The notes under the pieces were generated by a model. The model was not told where the DNA came from, did not search any database, and worked only from the letters and a program-made list of their open reading frames with translations. A stretch of 50,922 bases of DNA, taken from Spirochaetota bacterium. GTDB taxonomy: Bacteria; Spirochaetota; JAAYUW01; JAOAHJ01. Position 1 is the first letter of the stretch; each line of letters opens with the position of its first letter. Shown piece by piece: positions 13 through 10,551 of the stretch. The translations under genes and the position numbers were made by a program. The stretch is from NCBI GenBank assembly GCA_026415295.1, contig JAOAHJ010000033.1, positions 1 through 50,922 on the forward strand, in the 5' to 3' direction.

Positions 13-1206
13 ATGGATTATATATATAATTTTAAATTTTTTATATTTTTAATTTTCTATATTATATTTATATTTAGGATAATTAATTTTTACAAATTGA
101 ATAGATTAAAAAATAAAAGTAAATCTAATAATAATGAAAAAGATAATAATATTAAAATTTCTATTATAATACCTATAAGAAATGAAGAAAAAAATATTTT
201 ATATATATTAAATGACTTAACAAACCAAACTTATAATAATTTTGAGATCATTATAATAGATGACAATTCAGAAGATAGATCAGAGGTAGTAATAAAAGAT
301 TACATAATCAATTATAATATTAACTTTTCAAATTATTATTTAAATAATAATATAAAAATAAGCTACTATAAGCTTAACTATAATTTAGAAGTTTTTAAAA
401 ATTGGCAAGGTAAAAGTGCTGCTTGTTATTATGGAACCCTTTTTGCTTTGAATGATTTTCTACTTTTTATAGATGCTGATGTAAGATTGGAAAAAGATGC
501 ATTAGAGTATATTATTAAAAATTACAAAAAAGATTCAATTTTAACTATCCAACCATACCATTATACAAAAAAATTTTATGAACAATTTTCTATGTATTTC
601 AATATAATTGCTTTTATAGGAATGGATCTTGGAAAAATAATAAATACTAATAAGACAAAAAATGGTTTATTTGGACCTTTTATATTTTTACCTAAAGAAA
701 TTTATTATAAAACTAATGGACATTTAAATGTTAAAGAATACATTATAGAAGATATTATGCTCGGTAAATTTTTTGTAAATTTAGGTTACGAAATAATTTC
801 AATACCTCATTTAAAAAAAATTAAATACAGAATGTATCCAAATGGTTTTAAAGATCTAATTAATGGTTGGATAAAGAATATTTCTTTAGGAGCTTTAAAA
901 ACTTCAGTGTGGGTATTTTTAATAATAACATCCTTTATAGCTTTTTCAACTTCTATAACATTAAATTTATTAAGTTCAATATTTAGTTTAAACCTAAAAA
1001 ATATACTAGTAAGTATTTTATTTTATTCTATATTTTCCTTTATTAATTTTTATTCTTTTAATTTTATTGGTAGCTTTAAATTTATAAGTTTAATTATTTT
1101 TCCAATACATTTATTTCTTTTTTTATTGATTTTTATTATTTCGTTTATAATGAAAATATTTAGGATACCTGTAAATTGGAAAAATAGAAAAATTCTTATA
1201 AAATAA
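13..1206 (+). CDS. crtQ: CrtQ-like family 2 glycosyltransferase (4,4'-diaponeurosporenoate glycosyltransferase family)
   Basis: Membrane-bound family 2 glycosyltransferase. In the staphyloxanthin pathway CrtQ esterifies glucose to a C30 carotenoid acid. An N-terminal membrane segment (about residues 7-26) precedes a GT-A domain: IIIPIRNEE near 51, IIDDNSED near 80, GKSAACY at 133-139, DADV at 154-157, QPYH at 180-183, FGP near 220, and ED at 246-247 as the probable catalytic acid region. Hydrophobic helices fill about 290-380. The order GKS-ACY, DADV, QPYHxTKxFYE, FGP, RMYxxGF and GWxK matches remembered S. aureus CrtQ closely, well beyond generic GT2 similarity. The ATG at 13 gives a normal N-terminus, but the window edge leaves only 12 upstream bases, so an earlier start is not excluded. 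The CrtO-like gene follows after 29 bp. The true acceptor lipid is inferred, since no carotenoid desaturase or synthase is visible. Confidence 0.72.
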   Translation: MDYIYNFKFFIFLIFYIIFIFRIINFYKLNRLKNKSKSNNNEKDNNIKISIIIPIRNEEKNILYILNDLTNQTYNNFEIIIIDDNSEDRSEVVIKDYIINYNINFSNYYLNNNIKISYYKLNYNLEVFKNWQGKSAACYYGTLFALNDFLLFIDADVRLEKDALEYIIKNYKKDSILTIQPYHYTKKFYEQFSMYFNIIAFIGMDLGKIINTNKTKNGLFGPFIFLPKEIYYKTNGHLNVKEYIIEDIMLGKFFVNLGYEIISIPHLKKIKYRMYPNGFKDLINGWIKNISLGALKTSVWVFLIITSFIAFSTSITLNLLSSIFSLNLKNILVSILFYSIFSFINFYSFNFIGSFKFISLIIFPIHLFLFLLIFIISFIMKIFRIPVNWKNRKILIK

Positions 1207-1235
1207 ATTTTATATATAAATTAAAAATATCTATC

Positions 1236-1727
1236 ATGTTAAATTTTATTTTTATTTTTTTATTAAATTCATTATTTTGGATTTTTGCCCACTTAATTTC
1301 TGGTTATATTGTTCTTTTAATACCTGATAATTTTTACAATATAAATAATTTTTTATTTAAAATTAAAATTTGGGGCAAAGAGTATTTTTTCTACAAAAAT
1401 ATATTAAAAATTAATAATTGGAAAAACAAATTACCAGAAGGAGGAGAATTTTACAAAATAAAACCATTTAATAAAAAAAAATTAGAGGGTAAAAATATTA
1501 ATTATTTATATAGATATTTATTAGAAACTTGTAGAGGTGAACTTGCTCATTTATTACCTTTTCTATTTTATCCTATTTCAATTATCTGGAATTCATTTCT
1601 TGGAGCTATAATAATGTTTTTATTTTGCTTATTTTTTAACTTACCATTTATTTTTATTTTAAGATACAATAGAATAAGAATTTATAAACTAATAAAAAAA
1701 ATTAAAACATATAATATAAACTCATAG
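1236..1727 (+). CDS. crtO: CrtO-like glycosyl-carotenoid acyltransferase
   Basis: Small integral membrane protein (163 aa), the size of S. aureus CrtO (about 165 aa), which acylates the glucose of glycosyl-4,4'-diaponeurosporenoate. It has an N-terminal hydrophobic segment (about 3-28), the block NNWKNKLPEGG (60-70), the polar motif ETCRGELAH (97-105) and a C-terminal hydrophobic stretch ending in LRYNRIRIYKLIKK. The corresponding S. aureus elements (WKHKI.DG, ETKRAELIHW and QRYNRPRL) align in the same order. Glu102 and His105 are the likely functional pair, by inference. It sits 29 bp behind the CrtQ-like gene, so the two are probably co-transcribed. Its stop overlaps the stop of the convergent nadD by 6 bp, with no room for a separate terminator. 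The family call is good, but the actual lipid substrate is unknown. Confidence 0.72.
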   Translation: MLNFIFIFLLNSLFWIFAHLISGYIVLLIPDNFYNINNFLFKIKIWGKEYFFYKNILKINNWKNKLPEGGEFYKIKPFNKKKLEGKNINYLYRYLLETCRGELAHLLPFLFYPISIIWNSFLGAIIMFLFCLFFNLPFIFILRYNRIRIYKLIKKIKTYNINS

Positions 1728-2436: not shown

Positions 2437-3432
2437 TTAAATATTTGAATCCATGCACTTATCATATATTGCTTTTTTTAAATTTTCAAGATTTTCTTTT
2501 GTAAAAGAAGAAAAAGGATAAATTTCATAACCTAATTTTTTCATATATTCTTCAAATTTTAAAACATTTTCAAGATTGATATTTAAATCTATTTTTGAAA
2601 CAGAAATAATCCTTTCTTTCTTAAGTAAATATTTATCAAAATTCTCTAATTCCTGTAAAAGAATTTTGTATTGCATTATTAAATCGTCTTTTTCACTATC
2701 TATTAAAAAAAGTAATACCTTTGTTCTTTCAATGTGTTTTAAAAATCTAATACCAAGTCCTTTCCCCAAAGAAGCCCCTTCTATTAAGCCAGGAATATCA
2801 GCTATAATAAAATATTTCTTGCCATCATATGAAAAAGTTCCTAGATTTGGATAAAGTGTGGTAAATGGATATGGAGCTATTTTAGGATTACTATTTGTAA
2901 TAGTTTTTAATAGTGTAGATTTACCTGAATTTGGAAAACCAACTAAAGCGACATCAGCGATAAATTTTAACTCTATTTTAATTTTTTTACTCTTTCCTTC
3001 TAAACCCCTTGTGCATATTCTAGGAGATTGATTAACAGGAGTAGCAAAATGTTGATTCCCTTTTCCACCTTTTCCACCTTTTAATATAAGAATTTTTTCT
3101 TCTTTAACAAAGTCATAAATTATATTCCCGTTTTCATCTATTAACTGACTACCTATTGGAACTTTAATAATTAAATCTTTTCCTTTTTTACCAGAACAAT
3201 TTTTAGGTTTCCCTTTTTCTCCATTACCTGCTTTATATATGTGAGAGGTAGTAAGATGGCTTAATGTATTAATTTCATTAGTAGCTTCAAAATATATATC
3301 TCCTCCATCCCCACCATCTCCACCATCTGGACCACCTTTAGGCACAAATTTTTCTCTTCTAAAAGAAACTATACCATCACCACCATTACCAGACTTTATA
3401 TTAATTATTATTTCATCTTTAAAATAACTCAT
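2437..3432 (-). CDS. obgE: Obg family GTPase
   Basis: Ribosome-assembly and stress GTPase. Residues 1-158 form the glycine-rich Obg fold (repeated GGDGGDGG near 36-45). The G domain follows with P-loop GFPNSGKST (165-173), switch region PYPFTTLYPNLG, and DIPGLIEGA (212-220). The G4 motif reads SKID (279-282) where NKxD is usual, and G5 is SSF near 308. At 331 aa it is the core form and lacks the C-terminal OCT extension. A rho-independent terminator between rpmA and this gene suggests that it is transcribed partly by read-through or from its own promoter. The Shine-Dalgarno is weak. Confidence 0.96.
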   Translation of the reverse strand: MSYFKDEIIINIKSGNGGDGIVSFRREKFVPKGGPDGGDGGDGGDIYFEATNEINTLSHLTTSHIYKAGNGEKGKPKNCSGKKGKDLIIKVPIGSQLIDENGNIIYDFVKEEKILILKGGKGGKGNQHFATPVNQSPRICTRGLEGKSKKIKIELKFIADVALVGFPNSGKSTLLKTITNSNPKIAPYPFTTLYPNLGTFSYDGKKYFIIADIPGLIEGASLGKGLGIRFLKHIERTKVLLFLIDSEKDDLIMQYKILLQELENFDKYLLKKERIISVSKIDLNINLENVLKFEEYMKKLGYEIYPFSSFTKENLENLKKAIYDKCMDSNI

Positions 3433-3454
3433 AAATTACCAACAATTATTTTTA

Positions 3455-3494
3455 AATTAAAAAAGCCACCTAACTGGCAAGTTAGATGGACTTT
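3455..3494 (-). terminator. Rho-independent terminator after rpmA
   Basis: Read on the minus strand, CCATCTAACT, loop TGCC and AGTTAGGTGG form a 10-bp stem with one G-T pair. Flanking AAAG and CTTT extend it across a bulge, and a CTTTTTT run follows. It is one of the few GC-containing hairpins in the window. It lies between rpmA and obgE, so it would end most rplU-prp-rpmA transcripts. Confidence 0.85.
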
Positions 3495-3586
3495 AATTAA
3501 TTTTTATTTTGTTATTATTAATAATTTAATATTAAATAAAATATTTTATAAATTATTTTTATGTAATAGCTATATATTTAATTAAA

Positions 3587-3853
3587 TTATTTGCTATCAG
3601 GATAAACTGAAACAATTTTTCTGCCTTTTTTCCACTTATGATTTTCAAATTTAATAATCCCATCTATTAAAGCAAATAAAGTATCATCTCTTCCTCTTCC
3701 AACATTTTCTCCTGGAAATAATTTAGTTCCTCTTTGTCTAACCAAAATAGAACCCGCTGTTACAAATTGCCCTCCAAATCTTTTTATACCTAATCTTTTG
3801 GCTTTAGAATCTCTACCATTCTTACTACTTCCCCCACCTTTTTTATGTGCCAT
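3587..3853 (-). CDS. rpmA: 50S ribosomal protein L27
   Basis: Ribosomal protein near the peptidyl-transferase centre. It is 88 aa with the standard N-terminus [16 protein letters not shown] and the conserved [18 protein letters not shown] and [10 protein letters not shown] blocks. AAGGAG lies a few bases upstream of the ATG. The in-frame upstream sequence reaches a stop about 30 bases before the ATG with no ATG, GTG or TTG codon between. The cleavable N-terminal extension found on Firmicutes L27 is therefore absent, although a prp gene is adjacent. A terminator follows the gene. Confidence 0.98.
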
Positions 3854-3920
3854 ATTATTCTCCTTTATTGTTTTTATGATTTACAAATTTTTGTAAAAAT
3901 TAAAGTAAATTATTATTTTT

Positions 3921-4286
3921 TTATTCTATGAAATTATCCTTATAAATTTCTAACTTTATATAATCTTTAAAATTATTTTCAATTAGAATTAAAGAATTAA
4001 TTAAAAAATCATTTAAATATTTTAGTTTCTCATCCTTATATAACAAATTATTATAATTTAATTTATTCAAATCTAATTCAATTAATGCTTCTTTAGGATT
4101 TCTTAATTCAATATTTGTACCATATGTTTTATATATAAAAAAGGAATAACTCTGCACTAAAAATGATATAGATGAGCAAATTATATCATTCCCCTTAGTA
4201 CCAAAACCACTATGGCCTTTTACTATAATTTTGCTCAAATATTCTATATTATCAATAATTTTTTTATATATCTTAATATCTATCAA
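3921..4286 (-). CDS. prp: Prp-like ribosomal-processing cysteine protease
   Basis: Homologue of Prp (YsxB), which in Firmicutes trims L27. The catalytic pair is in place: His25 in KGHSG and Cys37 in DIICSSIS, 12 residues apart as in S. aureus Prp, with the family's Asp three residues before Cys. The position between rplU and rpmA is the classic one. The start is TTG at 4286, since no in-frame ATG precedes the GHSG motif, and no strong Shine-Dalgarno is seen. At 121 aa it is slightly longer than usual, with the C-terminal half rich in Asn, Leu and Lys. Because the adjacent L27 has no extension, its substrate here is unclear. Confidence 0.85.
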   Translation of the reverse strand: MIDIKIYKKIIDNIEYLSKIIVKGHSGFGTKGNDIICSSISFLVQSYSFFIYKTYGTNIELRNPKEALIELDLNKLNYNNLLYKDEKLKYLNDFLINSLILIENNFKDYIKLEIYKDNFIE

Positions 4287-4309
4287 TTTTTAATCTAAAA
4301 GATTTAATA

Positions 4310-4624
4310 TTATTCTATTTTCTCTATTCTAATAACAGAATATTGTTGCCTATGTCCTTTTTTATTTCTATAACCTTTTCTTCTTTTATATTTAAAAGCA
4401 ATTACTTTATCACCTTTAATCATAGGTACAACAATTTTTGCTTTAACATTAACACCATCTAAATAAGGATTGCCTACTTTTATATTACCGTTATCATCCC
4501 TAATCAACAATACTGTATTAAAATTTATTTCATTATCCTTATCCATATTCAAATAATCAACCCTATATTCTTTACCAGTTTCAATCTTATACTGTTTTCC
4601 TTTTATTTCACATATTGCATACAT
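4310..4624 (-). CDS. rplU: 50S ribosomal protein L21
   Basis: Ribosomal large-subunit protein of 104 aa, the usual length. It starts MYAICEIKGKQYKIETGKEYRVDYL and carries the C-terminal basic block KYKRRKGYRNKKGHRQQ, which contacts 23S rRNA. AAGGAG lies 9 bases before the ATG. It is the first gene of the rplU-prp-rpmA unit, 23 bp ahead of prp, and has a recognisable promoter at 4677-4704. Confidence 0.98.
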   Translation of the reverse strand: MYAICEIKGKQYKIETGKEYRVDYLNMDKDNEINFNTVLLIRDDNGNIKVGNPYLDGVNVKAKIVVPMIKGDKVIAFKYKRRKGYRNKKGHRQQYSVIRIEKIE

Positions 4625-4676
4625 ATCTATCTACTCCTTAATCAAATGTAATAAATATTAAATATTAATCTAAAAT

Positions 4677-4704
4677 AAAATATCAAAAATAATTATTTTG
4701 TCAA
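4677..4704 (-). promoter_or_regulatory. Sigma-70-type promoter of rplU-prp-rpmA
   Basis: On the minus strand TTGACA (4699-4704) is followed after 16 bp by TATTTT (4677-4682), about 50 bp upstream of the rplU start. The -35 box begins directly in the T-run of the tRNA terminator, so termination of the tRNA and initiation of the ribosomal-protein transcript are packed next to each other. The assignment is by consensus only. Confidence 0.55.
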
Positions 4705-4731
4705 TAAAAAACCTCCTCTAAATGAGGAGGT
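4704..4731 (-). terminator. Rho-independent terminator of the initiator tRNA
   Basis: The perfect 8-bp stem ACCTCCTC/GAGGAGGT with a 5-base loop (4711-4731) is followed on the minus strand by TTTTT. It begins 4 bases past the tRNA 3' end and separates the tRNA from the rplU unit. Confidence 0.9.
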
Positions 4732-4734
4732 AAT

Positions 4735-4808
<74 letters not shown>

Positions 4809-4818
4809 TCGTTGAATT

Positions 4819-4847
4819 AAATTTATATAGTTAATTTAATTTGTCAA
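4819..4847 (-). promoter_or_regulatory. Probable tRNA-fMet promoter
   Basis: A perfect TTGACA -35 (4842-4847, minus strand) lies 33 bp upstream of the mature tRNA 5' end. The -10 is AT-rich and ambiguous (TAAATT at 16-bp spacing is the best fit). Transcription would begin only a few bases before the tRNA. Confidence 0.5.
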
Positions 4848-4975
4848 GAAAAATTTACTTTTGTTTTAATTTAATCAAAAAAAGATATAAAGAAAACCAC
4901 ATTTTATATATTTTAAAGACAACATAATATTTAGTTTTTATAATTAAATTAATCACCCAAAAAATAAAAAAATTT

Positions 4976-6589
4976 CTAAAACAATCTTAAAATATTTAAA
5001 TACTTTTCAAGTTCTTTTCTAAAAATTAAGACAAAGTCATCAGTTTGATTAAACATTAAGCTTTTATCAATTAATTCTATACTATGAATAAAATTATTAC
5101 AAAAATCACTTATAAACTCATTTAATAAGCTAATATTACTCACAGCATATTTATATTTTTCTGAATCATGAGAAATACTTTTATCTTTAAATTCTCTTGT
5201 AATAAATATTTTTAAATTTCTTGTTTTTTCTTCAATAGATTCAATAATAAATTGAGTTTTATCTATTATTTTCAAGGAATCATTAATAGAATCAATATGA
5301 ACTTTTTCAAAGAGATAAAATTTCTCTCTTAATATTTTATCTATTCTTATCGAAAAAAAAGTTTGCCATACATAAAAATAAAAAGATGTTATAAAACCAA
5401 TTTTTTCAATATAATTTATTAATGGTAAATTATATTCTTCCAAAAATTTATTAATATTTTCATCAAGATTAACAAAATTATATTGTTTTAAGTTTAGCTC
5501 TTTAATTTTATTATATATATTTTCCCTTTCTTTTATTTTAAGATTTTGTTCAACTTCTTTCACTTTCTTCTCTAAATAATTATCTATATATTTTGTAACT
5601 TCCTTAAAAAAATCTATCTTATACCTAACAAATTCATATTCATATACTGGATTGTTATATATTATTTTTAATAAGTTTAATCCTTTATTTTCATATATAT
5701 AAAATAAAATAGAATTAATAAAAAGCTCAATATCTCTTTCTTCTATATCAAAATCGAATTGAATATTTTTATAATATTCAACCATCTGCTTAATTAGTTG
5801 AATAATATTTTCATTTTCAAATGGAAAGTTTAAAACCTTTTTAATAAAAAATGCTATTTGATCTTTTATCTGATTTAGAGGAACTTTTTCATCAAATTTT
5901 TTTGAAAATTCTACTAAAAAATTAATTTCTAAATTAAAAAAATTTATTAAATTAAAAAAAAGATTCAATTTATTATTAAAATTATTTTCAATTTTTCCTC
6001 TCAATGAATTTAAGATATCTTTTTTTATTTCAAACAATTTTTTCTTATAGTTAGAATCTTCATAAATCATCTTTTCAATGTTTTTATCAGAAAAATTTTC
6101 TAATTTTTTCTTGACAGTTTCATCATACAGTGACTCAAGAAAATATAGTAAAATTTTTTCCTTTATTATTTTTTCTTTAAAACCTAAATAAAAATATTTA
6201 AGAAATTCATCATATTTCTTTATAAAATCGCTAATATTATAAATACCACTAAAAAATATTTTATTTAAAGTATCATCAGATAAATTATAGATAATTGTAT
6301 TTTTCGAATTTAAAAGTTTTACAATTTTTTTTATTTCTTTTTTTAAAATATATTTTTCAATATCATAGTATCCAAATAGGGAATTTATAAAAATAATTAT
6401 TGAATCTAATAAAGTTAATTTATAAGACTTAATTAAATAATTTTTACTTTTTTCATTATCTTCCTCAACCTGATCTAATACAGAATCATCAGATATATAT
6501 AATACTCTTGAAAATTTCTCATATAAAATTTTTCTTTCATTTTCAGATAAATTTTTTAGTATTTTTTCAAGATATGTTCCATCACCCAT
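4976..6589 (-). CDS. Large helical protein of unknown function
   Basis: A 537-aa protein with no signal peptide or clear membrane span. It is almost wholly predicted helix, rich in Lys, Glu, Asn, Ile and Phe, with likely coiled-coil stretches near 330-370 (KKVKEVEQNLKIKERENIYN). The N-terminus (LEKILKNLSENERKILYEKF) recalls, from memory only, an uncharacterised spirochaete family (DUF5312-like) that begins with an LSxxER helix. I could not verify this and assign no function. It lies 111 bp downstream of the M23 peptidase gene in the same direction. An AAAGAG Shine-Dalgarno lies about 10 bases before the ATG. No catalytic motif is visible. Confidence 0.8.
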   Translation of the reverse strand: MGDGTYLEKILKNLSENERKILYEKFSRVLYISDDSVLDQVEEDNEKSKNYLIKSYKLTLLDSIIIFINSLFGYYDIEKYILKKEIKKIVKLLNSKNTIIYNLSDDTLNKIFFSGIYNISDFIKKYDEFLKYFYLGFKEKIIKEKILLYFLESLYDETVKKKLENFSDKNIEKMIYEDSNYKKKLFEIKKDILNSLRGKIENNFNNKLNLFFNLINFFNLEINFLVEFSKKFDEKVPLNQIKDQIAFFIKKVLNFPFENENIIQLIKQMVEYYKNIQFDFDIEERDIELFINSILFYIYENKGLNLLKIIYNNPVYEYEFVRYKIDFFKEVTKYIDNYLEKKVKEVEQNLKIKERENIYNKIKELNLKQYNFVNLDENINKFLEEYNLPLINYIEKIGFITSFYFYVWQTFFSIRIDKILREKFYLFEKVHIDSINDSLKIIDKTQFIIESIEEKTRNLKIFITREFKDKSISHDSEKYKYAVSNISLLNEFISDFCNNFIHSIELIDKSLMFNQTDDFVLIFRKELEKYLNILRLF

Positions 6590-6700
6590 TTTAAAATTCT
6601 CTTTAATTAATCTTATAAATAATTTTAATATTTTTTTTTAAAACTTTTTTAATATTATAATATTAATTAATATTTTTAATCTTCTCAGTTTAAACTTACT

Positions 6701-7876
6701 TTATTTTCTTTTAAAAGGTAATCCTCTTATATAAAATCTTGGATTAAGTAATTTATTAAATCTTCTTATTTCAAAATGAAGATGAGAACCTGTCGATCTT
6801 CCTGACGAACCCATATAACCAATAAGTTGTCCTTTTGAAACTGTTTGACCTACTTTAACACTTATTTTACTTAAATGTCCATAAATAGTCTCGTAACCAA
6901 GTGGATGTTTTATTACTATCTTTAAACCATAACCTCCATCCCAGCCCGTATAGATAACTGTCCCAGCATAAGCTGAATAAATCGGAGTTCCATATAAATT
7001 TGCTATATCCATTCCTGAGTGAAATCTTCTTATTCCTATAAAAGGATCTATTCTAAACCCAAAACCAGATGTAATATATCCATAAACTGGTAATCCGAAA
7101 TCAACACCATAAGCTTTCAATTTCTCAGTAATTGGAAGCTCAACATTTGGGAAAAAAACTTTACCTAAAGCAACCAGCTCTTCTTTTGTTGCAACCCTAT
7201 TTGCTATATAGATGGATAAGATATCTACATCATATTCATCTATTTTTTTATTTAAATCATCAATATTTTCAACCTTTATTAAGATACCTGTTTGAGTTGG
7301 AATAACAATTTCTTCTGAAACTTTTAAAGAATGTGCATCTTTTAATTTATCTCTATTTGCAGAATATATAGAATCAACTGAAATTCCAAATCTTTTTGCT
7401 ATATCCCACAATGTATCACCTTTGCCTGTCTTATAAACAACAAAATTAACAGGCTCAAGAATTATATTTGATTCCCCTCCAATTGAATTAATAATTTCAA
7501 AAATTTCTCTGGAATAAATATTTTTAGAGTATATAATTTTGTTTAATAATATAAATGGATCAATTTTTTCATCATTAATTAAATCTGATTCATTTTCATT
7601 TATATTAGCTTCTATATTTGTTAAAAAGTTCGTACTTTTATATTTATCAAAATAAATTTTTGTTATATCTTTATTTTTATAAATAATAAGATTAATTGAT
7701 TCATAAAAAAAAGAAAAATTAAATATTATAAAAAAAATTAAGACAATAAAAAGAAAAGCTGCTAAGCTAAAAGACTCAATATCAAAATTATTCGTTAAAT
7801 AATATTTAACTTTTTTTAAGAATTTTTTTCTTTTATAATAAAAATTATTTTTATCTATATATCCATCATAAAACAT
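6701..7876 (-). CDS. LysM and M23 family murein endopeptidase, membrane-anchored
   Basis: Cell-wall hydrolase or divisome-type peptidase. A basic cytoplasmic N-terminus is followed by one membrane segment (about 36-56), then a LysM peptidoglycan-binding domain (about 146-193, GDTLWDIAKRFGIS...IVIP) and a C-terminal LytM/M23 domain. Zinc ligands are intact: His286 and Asp290 in FHSGMD, and His365 and His367 in SHLHFE. The GHL motif is near 333. All key residues suggest an active enzyme rather than an EnvC-type degenerate activator. Its start lies 26 bp after the mutS stop, so the two are probably co-transcribed. A short CAGGGT ribosome-binding site is present. Confidence 0.93.
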   Translation of the reverse strand: MFYDGYIDKNNFYYKRKKFLKKVKYYLTNNFDIESFSLAAFLFIVLIFFIIFNFSFFYESINLIIYKNKDITKIYFDKYKSTNFLTNIEANINENESDLINDEKIDPFILLNKIIYSKNIYSREIFEIINSIGGESNIILEPVNFVVYKTGKGDTLWDIAKRFGISVDSIYSANRDKLKDAHSLKVSEEIVIPTQTGILIKVENIDDLNKKIDEYDVDILSIYIANRVATKEELVALGKVFFPNVELPITEKLKAYGVDFGLPVYGYITSGFGFRIDPFIGIRRFHSGMDIANLYGTPIYSAYAGTVIYTGWDGGYGLKIVIKHPLGYETIYGHLSKISVKVGQTVSKGQLIGYMGSSGRSTGSHLHFEIRRFNKLLNPRFYIRGLPFKRK

Positions 7877-7902
7877 AATTTACCCTGAGAAAATAAATTA
7901 AT

Positions 7903-10551
7903 TTATTTTTTACTTTTAATTCTTGCAATTCTAGCTTTTAATTCTTCAAGGAATTTTAAACTTTCCAACGGTGATTTATTATATATATCGAAATTTAAAA
8001 TTGAATTTAAAATACTTTCTTTTTCATTTTCAAAAAAATCAAACAAATAATTTTCCTTTTTCTCTTTTTTAATTTCAAAATCAAACCTTATATCATTGTT
8101 TTTAATAATTGAAAGTAATTCATTTGCTCTCTCAATTATATCAAAGGGAATTCCTGCTATTTTAGCAACATAAATTCCATAACTTTTATCTGCATATCCT
8201 TTTTCAATTTTCTTTAAAAAAATAATCTTATCCTCCCACTCTTTAACAAGAGTATGGTAACATTCAACCTGAGGATTTTCATCAAGATGTACAAGTTCAA
8301 AATAATGAGTTGCAAATAAAGTTTTTGCTTTTATTTTATTAATTATATATTCTGATATAGCAAAAGCTAGACTCATCCCATCAAAAGTTGAAGTTCCTCT
8401 CCCAACTTCATCAAGAATTATAAAGGATTTACTTGTTGCATTTTTAATAATATAAGCAGTTTCAGACATTTCTGCTAAAAAAGTAGATTGTCCTCTTGCT
8501 ATATTATCAGAAGCACCTACTCTTGAAAAAATATTATCAAAAACATGCAATTTAACCTTTTTTGCTGGAACATAAGATCCTATATGAGAAAGGTATATTA
8601 TAATTGCATTCTGTCTTAAAAAAGTACTCTTACCAGACATATTTGGCCCAGTTATTATATGAAAAAATTTATCTTTATCCATTTTTAGGTCATTAGGAAT
8701 AAATTGGTCTTTCGATTCTTCTTCTATAAATTTTTTAACAATTGGATGAAAACCCTCCTCAATAATAAGCTCATTTTCATTTATAAACTCTGGTTTTACA
8801 AAATTATACTTCTTTGCTACAATTGCTAAAGAAATAAAAACATCAAGTTCGGCAACTTTATTAAATATGTCATATAAAAATATTTTAATATTCTTTATCT
8901 TTTCACATAAATCATCAAAAAGTTTTTTTTCAAGTTCTATTCTCTTTTCAGAAAAGTTTAAGATTTTTGACTCAGTTTCAATTAAAAATTCTGTTGTAAA
9001 TCTTTCTGCATTAGTCAATGTTTGCTTTCTAATAAAATAATTTGGAACTTTTTCAATGTTTCCTTTTGAAACTTCTATAAAATAACCAAAAACTTTATTG
9101 TATTTTATTTTTAAATTTTGAATATTTGTTTCTACCTTAAGTTTTTCAAGATAGTCAAAAAGAATCTTTTCAGAATCATTATAAAACTTTATTAATTCAT
9201 CTAACTCGTAATTATAACCAATTTTAAAAATACTACCTTCTTCAATATTAAAAGATGGATCATCGATTAAAGCTTTATCAATTAATTCTAAACATTCAAG
9301 TATTTTGGGTGAGATACATAAAAAATTTTTAAATAAACTCAGTTTATCTAACCAAATATTTGATATTTCGTATATTTTATAAATACTGTTTTTGAAATTA
9401 ACAATATCTACTGGACTACATCTTTTAAGATAAATTTTAACAAATAATCTTTCAATATCTTTTATTGTTTTAAACTCATTTTTTATTTTTTGAGTTATTT
9501 CATAATTCTGAAGAAGTTCCTCTATAAAATTCAATCTTCTATTAATTAAATTTACATTTTTTAGTGGAAAAAGCATAAACTCTTTTAACTTTCTTCTACC
9601 CATTGGAGTAGAAGTAAAATCAATAAAATTTATCAATGTTGTATCTTTTTCTCCTGAAAACAAAGGAGAAAAAATTTCTAAATTTCTTCTAGTTCCTTCA
9701 TCAACTTTTAAATAATTATTTTCTTCAATAAATATTACTTTATTTATAAAAGATAAATCTGAAATATGGTTATTCCTAAAATAATTTAGCATTAATATTA
9801 ATAAATAGATTAAATTTTTATTCTTTTCTATACTTTTCCAAGATTCAAAATTATTAGTTTCTAGAACTTCTTTTATAAAATCATTAAACTCAAAAAAAAA
9901 TTCTTCCTTTTCAAAATTGTTTAAATTTAATTCTTCAAAACTTATATTTGAGAAAAAAACTTTATTTTTAAAATTTGATTTTAAATTATTAATAATATTG
10001 TCTTCCTTATTAAAAGTTAGATAAAATATAATTTCTTTAGGTTTATTTTTATATAGATAATCTATTAATTCATCATCATCTCTAAATATTGATAAAAATA
10101 TTTCACCAGTGGAAATATCTGCAAGGGCTATATAATAAATTAGAAATTGTTCATTAGTTACTAAACAATTACATATAAAATTATTCTCTTTTGTTAAAAA
10201 TTCATCATTTATTATCATTCCAGGAGTATAAATTTCAACAACCCCTCTCTTTACAATACCTTTTGCCTTTTTTGGATCTTCAAGTTGCTCACAAATAGCA
10301 ACTTTTTTGCCATTATCGATAAGTTTTTTCAAATATGGTTTATAAGAATGATACGGTACTCCACACATTTTTATACCAGCTCTTTGGGTTAAAACTATAT
10401 TTAATATCAAAGAGGCTTCTTCTGCATCTTTATCAAACATTTCATAAAAATCACCAGCTCTAAAAAAAATAATATAGTCTTTATACCTTTCTTTTATAGA
10501 ATAAAATTGTTTCATCATTGGAGTTAAATTTTTTACATCTAAAAAATCCAT
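7903..10551 (-). CDS. mutS: DNA mismatch repair protein MutS
   Basis: Recognises mismatches and small loops. It is 882 aa, full length. The N-terminal mismatch-binding motif GDFYEMF (Phe-x-Glu) is near residues 32-38. The ATPase has Walker A GPNMSGKST (635-643), DEVGRGTST and the TLFATHYFEL switch region, followed by the helix-turn-helix dimer region near the C-terminus. It carries all MutS1 domains, so it is not a MutS2. mutL is not in this window. It lies 58 bp after the rubrerythrin-like gene and 26 bp before the M23 peptidase gene. No clear Shine-Dalgarno precedes the ATG. Confidence 0.98.
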   Translation of the reverse strand: MDFLDVKNLTPMMKQFYSIKERYKDYIIFFRAGDFYEMFDKDAEEASLILNIVLTQRAGIKMCGVPYHSYKPYLKKLIDNGKKVAICEQLEDPKKAKGIVKRGVVEIYTPGMIINDEFLTKENNFICNCLVTNEQFLIYYIALADISTGEIFLSIFRDDDELIDYLYKNKPKEIIFYLTFNKEDNIINNLKSNFKNKVFFSNISFEELNLNNFEKEEFFFEFNDFIKEVLETNNFESWKSIEKNKNLIYLLILMLNYFRNNHISDLSFINKVIFIEENNYLKVDEGTRRNLEIFSPLFSGEKDTTLINFIDFTSTPMGRRKLKEFMLFPLKNVNLINRRLNFIEELLQNYEITQKIKNEFKTIKDIERLFVKIYLKRCSPVDIVNFKNSIYKIYEISNIWLDKLSLFKNFLCISPKILECLELIDKALIDDPSFNIEEGSIFKIGYNYELDELIKFYNDSEKILFDYLEKLKVETNIQNLKIKYNKVFGYFIEVSKGNIEKVPNYFIRKQTLTNAERFTTEFLIETESKILNFSEKRIELEKKLFDDLCEKIKNIKIFLYDIFNKVAELDVFISLAIVAKKYNFVKPEFINENELIIEEGFHPIVKKFIEEESKDQFIPNDLKMDKDKFFHIITGPNMSGKSTFLRQNAIIIYLSHIGSYVPAKKVKLHVFDNIFSRVGASDNIARGQSTFLAEMSETAYIIKNATSKSFIILDEVGRGTSTFDGMSLAFAISEYIINKIKAKTLFATHYFELVHLDENPQVECYHTLVKEWEDKIIFLKKIEKGYADKSYGIYVAKIAGIPFDIIERANELLSIIKNNDIRFDFEIKKEKKENYLFDFFENEKESILNSILNFDIYNKSPLESLKFLEELKARIARIKSKK

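Follow-up and report, generated by a model that had tools for sequence, protein, structure and literature searches.

The first two genes of a contig from an AT-rich spirochaete resemble crtQ and crtO, whose products in Staphylococcus aureus glycosylate and then acylate a C30 carotenoid acid. Which lipid does such a pair modify in a bacterium of this kind? A first-pass annotation of the DNA had proposed an acylated glycosyl-terpenoid or similar membrane lipid and had expected CrtM, CrtN and CrtP genes just upstream. Here, we place both proteins in their families, search the host genome for carotenoid biosynthesis genes and compare the pair with its relatives.

Location of the pair and the host genome

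The window (the whole stretch of DNA analysed, 50,922 bases) is one entire contig (C33) of a Spirochaetota assembly of 2.10 Mb in 39 contigs, which is 96% complete. With a GC content of 21%, the host is indeed the AT-rich, apparently diderm organism described in the first-pass annotation. The features at the beginning of the window are:

13-1206, + strand: CrtQ/HpnB/CruG-like membrane GT2 glycosyltransferase, 397 aa (ATG start, open frame, motifs, profiles)
1236-1727, + strand: CrtO-family (PF18927) putative glycolipid acyltransferase, 163 aa (ATG start, open frame, profile, invariant residues)
1722-2393, - strand: nadD-like nicotinate-nucleotide adenylyltransferase (named from sequence; outside the pair unit)

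The first two genes (here CrtQ and CrtO) are co-oriented, intact and separated by 29 bases, and CrtO shares its last 6 bases with the convergent nadD. At a GC content of about 18%, their frames are far more open than expected by chance: base-shuffled versions contain about 41 (CrtQ) and 16 (CrtO) in-frame stops and none of 2,000 shuffles of either gene was open. This rules out frames open by chance, and both are therefore real genes. Contamination of the contig was also ruled out: its obgE shows about 60% identity to that of the order-mates of the host, which share the order rplU-rpmA-obgE-nadD.

This nadD-obgE-rpmA-rplU order is found in order-mates without the pair. In the three order-mates, which lack CrtO, LCP and rsfS genes come after nadD, and the synteny of these genomes is consequently silent on the sequence 5' of CrtQ. 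That sequence is unreadable because the window, as an entire contig, ends there. A search for an adjoining contig by contig-end overlap returned only AT-rich noise.

Family assignment and conservation of the two proteins

In profile searches the CrtQ-like protein matches the GT2 family PF00535 (1.1e-20, 74.6 bits). It further gives an end-to-end match to HpnB (residues 14-393) and one to CruG that spans residues 32-329, both scoring far under the equivalog cut-offs. It has the GT2 domain, the C-terminal membrane part and the motifs of the CrtQ/HpnB/CruG type: its translation contains GKSAACY, DADV, QPYHYTKKFYE, FGP and RMYPNGF, and the conserved residues DD (83-84), S86, D88, DAD (154-156), QPYH (180-183), RMY (273-275) and W389 are retained. 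Judged from these features, the assignment to the CrtQ/HpnB/CruG subfamily is correct, and no curated family claims the protein. The host genome contains a single CrtQ copy.

The CrtO protein matches PF18927 over residues 40-155 (1.8e-26, 93.3 bits against a cut-off of 27.3) and contains NNWKNKLPEGG, ETCRGELAH and LRYNRIR. It carries the core signature W..P..ETCRxExxH..RxNR, with all ten invariant positions of a 59-row alignment kept (W62, P67, E97, T98, R100, E102, H105, R143, N145 and R146). The adjacent CrtQ/CrtO-type pair recognised in the first-pass annotation is thus borne out by both its motifs and the profiles. The predicted structure of CrtO is confident (pLDDT 92.5). A fold comparison of this model with solved structures found no relative, so that no mechanism can be transferred to the protein; a search by sequence found no solved homologue, and the literature on PF18927 beyond carotenoids yielded nothing useful. 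PF18927 proteins carry the product name 'glycosyl-4,4'-diaponeurosporenoate acyltransferase'.

Among the copies compared, the window pair departs most at conserved positions. CrtQ keeps 40 of 48 conserved columns and deviates at eight, where other sequences deviate at three or fewer; most of these changes are AT-driven swaps (V/A to I, G to N, T to S) toward AT-rich codons. CrtO deviates at 4 of 25 conserved positions, including E47 to G (position 47 is E in all 58 other rows of the alignment); this change and G50 to Y fall at otherwise near-invariant sites. The pair may be under relaxed constraint.

Carotenoid pathway genes in the host genome

The squalene/phytoene synthase family (PF00494; CrtM or HpnCD-type) has no match anywhere in the 96%-complete assembly. 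The same is true genome-wide for desaturases/oxidases of the CrtN/CrtI/CrtP type (PF01593, Amino_oxidase), a search that matched all 14 of 14 control genomes. There is one polyprenyl synthase, of an ordinary, generic type. PF13450 has eight matches; the loci of six were examined and the readable proteins resemble LpdA, GlpA and ferredoxin/NADH-type proteins, these types having been read from the sequence rather than by profile. Aldehyde dehydrogenases, the class of the AldH that makes the carotenoid acid, are too widespread to be diagnostic in a genome lacking CrtP.

The host therefore shows neither the synthase nor the desaturase/oxidase of the staphyloxanthin (C30 carotenoid ester) pathway, nor the CrtB and CrtI of a CrtB-CrtI-CruF carotenoid glycoside ester pathway. 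Because neither kind of enzyme occurs in the 96%-complete assembly, the organism probably does not build a C30 carotenoid acid of its own to serve as the aglycone; a carotenoid aglycone is not supported by the gene content of this host.

Relatives of the pair

A scan of a genome collection gave 62 CrtO loci in many phyla. CrtQ+CrtO pairs were seen in Bacteroidetes, WOR-3, Dehalococcoidia, Thermodesulfobacteriota, Omnitrophota, Chitinivibrionales, Thiobaca and others, and a search of a plasmid collection gave a single weak match, in Picosynechococcus. The first-pass annotation had stressed a setting outside the usual Firmicutes. This is true of the host but is not new, given the pairs in many phyla and the example of Methylobacterium extorquens (PMC10448405). 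Carotenoids are themselves already known from a spirochaete, Salinispira (PMC4511686).

One Bacteroidetes MAG carries a full set together (desaturase, aldehyde dehydrogenase, desaturase, CrtQ and CrtO) and is a good anchor for a staphyloxanthin-like reading of the family. Among the neighbours of the pairs, only FAD desaturases recur widely (six loci beyond the nearest kin). Several pair-bearing MAGs, whose completeness is not given, have no phytoene/squalene synthase (PSY): those of L010, L011, L014-L017, L020 and L022. In L011 (WOR-3, 3140-9556), CrtO and CrtQ are accompanied by one SDR-like gene and two that resemble FAD desaturases, in a MAG of 1.6 Mb. A Tocopherol_cycl (PF14249) gene occurs near the pair in a spirochaete (L006, 453-1466, + strand) and in a Dehalococcoidia MAG (L015, 5035-6048, - strand).

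In the CrtO tree the window copy groups with G051, G058, G158, G106, UBA6089, G307 and WOR-3 (support 99/99) and in the CrtQ tree with G051, G058, G106 and UBA6089 (100/100). PSY is scattered inside this clade. The nearest relative by identity is G051. In this genome and in G058, G106 and UBA6089, the nearest pair-bearing spirochaetes, no crt genes lie alongside the pair, and G051 has a pigment cluster, CrtI-CruF-CrtB, elsewhere in the genome. Together with the genome-wide absence of PF00494 and PF01593 from the host, this leaves the expectation of CrtM/N/P genes 5' of the pair unsupported. A CruF-like gene also lies near PSY in G405. Given the known role of CruF, these arrangements suggest that the closest relatives that make carotenoids may glycosylate the CruF-made hydroxyl of an acyclic carotenoid and not a C30 carboxyl.

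Co-occurrence of the pair with carotenoid synthase in Spirochaetota

In a survey of 393 Spirochaetota genomes, CrtO exceeded its cut-off in 36 and PSY in 71. No carotenoid synthase was detectable in 30 of the 36 CrtO-bearing genomes. CrtQ adjoins CrtO in nine genomes, a pair being called where the two lie within about 1.5 kb at the loci examined, while a few genomes with weaker CrtO, whose loci were left unexamined, were counted as lone. PSY is present in 6/9 pair genomes against 0/27 lone-CrtO genomes (Fisher p=4.3e-5), and the comparison of pair genomes with all others gives p=0.0015; both values come from genomes that are phylogenetically non-independent.

The pair is intact and full-length in six genomes. 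Five of these have PSY (G013, G051, G058, G405 and G422) and the window genome does not. Of the others, G307 has PSY and an internal deletion across the pair (L155, 9432-10114), which may be a misassembly. G106 (97% complete) has no PSY; its CrtQ is frameshifted (L153, 10416-11526) and looks as if it were decaying. In G158 (82% complete), also without PSY, the pair is truncated by a contig end. The CrtO copies of G158 (L089) and G106 (L093) are nearly identical although the genomes are filed in different families, which would reflect either transfer or a misbinned contig. PSY is likewise absent from the three order-mates of the host.

CrtO without CrtQ

Lone CrtO, in genomes with neither CrtQ nor PSY, is found in Firmicutes and, among spirochaetes, mainly in two families, and forms separate clades in the CrtO tree, outside the pair clade. 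The spirochaete examples include two single-contig assemblies (G244 and G431), and no PSY was found among the approximately 28 lone-CrtO Firmicutes genomes searched. Two lone-CrtO Actinomycetota genomes do carry PSY.

In five Sporolactobacillus loci (L018, L019, L023, L026 and L031) and a Clostridiales MAG (L041), lone CrtO is followed by a diglucosyl-diacylglycerol-synthase/MGDG-synthase-like gene, and no PSY was found in the searched genomes. It is possible that these loci are glycerolipid acylation units. The neighbouring genes give the best pointer, a hint, to CrtO chemistry on glycerolipids. An RsmE-like gene comes after lone CrtO in 18 loci of the Ruminococcus type (L021, L038 and L050 among them), a conserved arrangement.

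Proposed function and alternatives

We consider the odds about even (a probability of roughly 0.5) that the pair makes an acylated glycosyl lipid in two steps, on an aglycone other than a home-made C30 carotenoid acid. In this, the acylated glycosyl lipid proposed in the first-pass annotation is retained as the probable product. The two genes would form one transcription unit for membrane lipid tailoring. On the cytoplasmic side of the membrane, a nucleotide sugar would supply the hexose that the CrtQ-like GT2 attaches to a lipid aglycone; a fatty acyl chain would then be added to this sugar by the CrtO-like protein. Another endogenous lipid would be the likeliest acceptor, for example, a glycerolipid or an alcohol or acid of the fatty or polyprenyl type.

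No carotenoid-making enzyme tested for was found; therefore the pair probably decorates another membrane lipid or is the leftover of a lost pathway. Action on another lipid is favoured by the family placement of both proteins, by intact frames with the catalytic-type motifs kept, by the absence of PF00494 and PF01593 from a genome with one generic polyprenyl synthase and a single CrtQ copy, by the frequency of lone CrtO without a carotenoid synthase and by the pair without PSY in G106. Against it, the pair tracks PSY, which is present in 5/5 of the other intact-pair genomes; CrtQ of the PSY-less G106 is frameshifted; 4% of the host genome is unseen; and it is lone CrtO, outside the pair clade, that gives the glycerolipid hint. 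The window genome is the exception among intact pairs and, therefore, explanations by a missing piece of the genome and by a relict both stay alive.

In the first of these, the pair would modify a hydroxylated acyclic carotenoid from CrtB-CrtI-CruF, or a C30 counterpart, made by genes in the unassembled few percent of the genome. We regard this as unlikely, with perhaps one chance in five or slightly better. The 5/5 association speaks for it, as do the CrtI-CruF-CrtB cluster of G051 and the contig break at CrtQ. However, PF00494 and PF01593 are untraced in a 96%-complete genome and three order-mates also lack PSY. Since the nearest pair-bearing spirochaetes keep the pair away from their crt genes, the break gives no special cause to expect crt genes beyond it.

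Scarcely behind this, and also improbable, is a relict: the pair would have been acquired or inherited with a carotenoid pathway whose synthase and desaturase were then lost, leaving both genes drifting to decay. The deviations at conserved positions, E47G in CrtO among them, fit such drift, as do the damaged pairs of G106 and G307, but G307 keeps PSY and its deletion may be an assembly error. Moreover, both frames are fully open at a GC content where chance stops are dense, CrtO retains its invariant residues and CrtQ its catalytic-type motifs, and most CrtQ deviations are AT-driven. Finally, the pair might act on carotenoids or other terpenoid lipids acquired from neighbours such as phototrophs. 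This would square the association with the missing pathway, but we know of no spirochaete case of carotenoid uptake and modification and regard it as very improbable.

More tentatively, and with the odds against it, PF18927 may mainly acylate general membrane glycolipids (glucosyl-diacylglycerols and others) and have been recruited several times to carotenoids, the window pair making an undescribed acylated glycolipid in a spirochaete that lacks a carotenoid pathway.

If the pair acts on another lipid, the step annotated as 'staphyloxanthin' would be a general route to acylated glycolipids and spirochaetes would be a place to seek them. If it is a relict, the loss of a pathway has been caught midway. 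The broader and more rewarding question is the role of PF18927 in the many genomes that lack carotenoid synthesis.

Comparison with known systems

Like the staphyloxanthin CrtQ-CrtO of S. aureus (crtOPQMN), the window pair combines a GT2 and a PF18927 acyltransferase that match at the level of motifs, for glycosylation and then acylation of a lipid. Unlike it, the host has no CrtM/CrtN/CrtP family protein, and the two genes are adjacent with no other crt gene seen.

M. extorquens, also a diderm, produces an acylated C30 glucosyl ester through META1p3663/3664, where a homologue of CrtQ (27% identity) adjoins an acyltransferase (PMC10448405). In contrast to the window pair, that acyltransferase is of the lysophospholipid-acyltransferase type and not CrtO, and the C30 precursor genes are present (PMC10448405).

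Lone CrtO of Firmicutes and Spirochaetota shares the PF18927 core signature and a genome without carotenoid synthase, but lacks a CrtQ partner and falls in separate clades of the CrtO tree. Pair-bearing Spirochaetota with CrtI-CruF-CrtB and a dispersed pair, such as G051, differ from the window genome, which lacks CrtB and CrtI, and their aglycone would be a CruF-hydrated acyclic carotenoid instead of a C30 acid; they belong to the same phylum and their pair is homologous to that of the window, within one supported clade.
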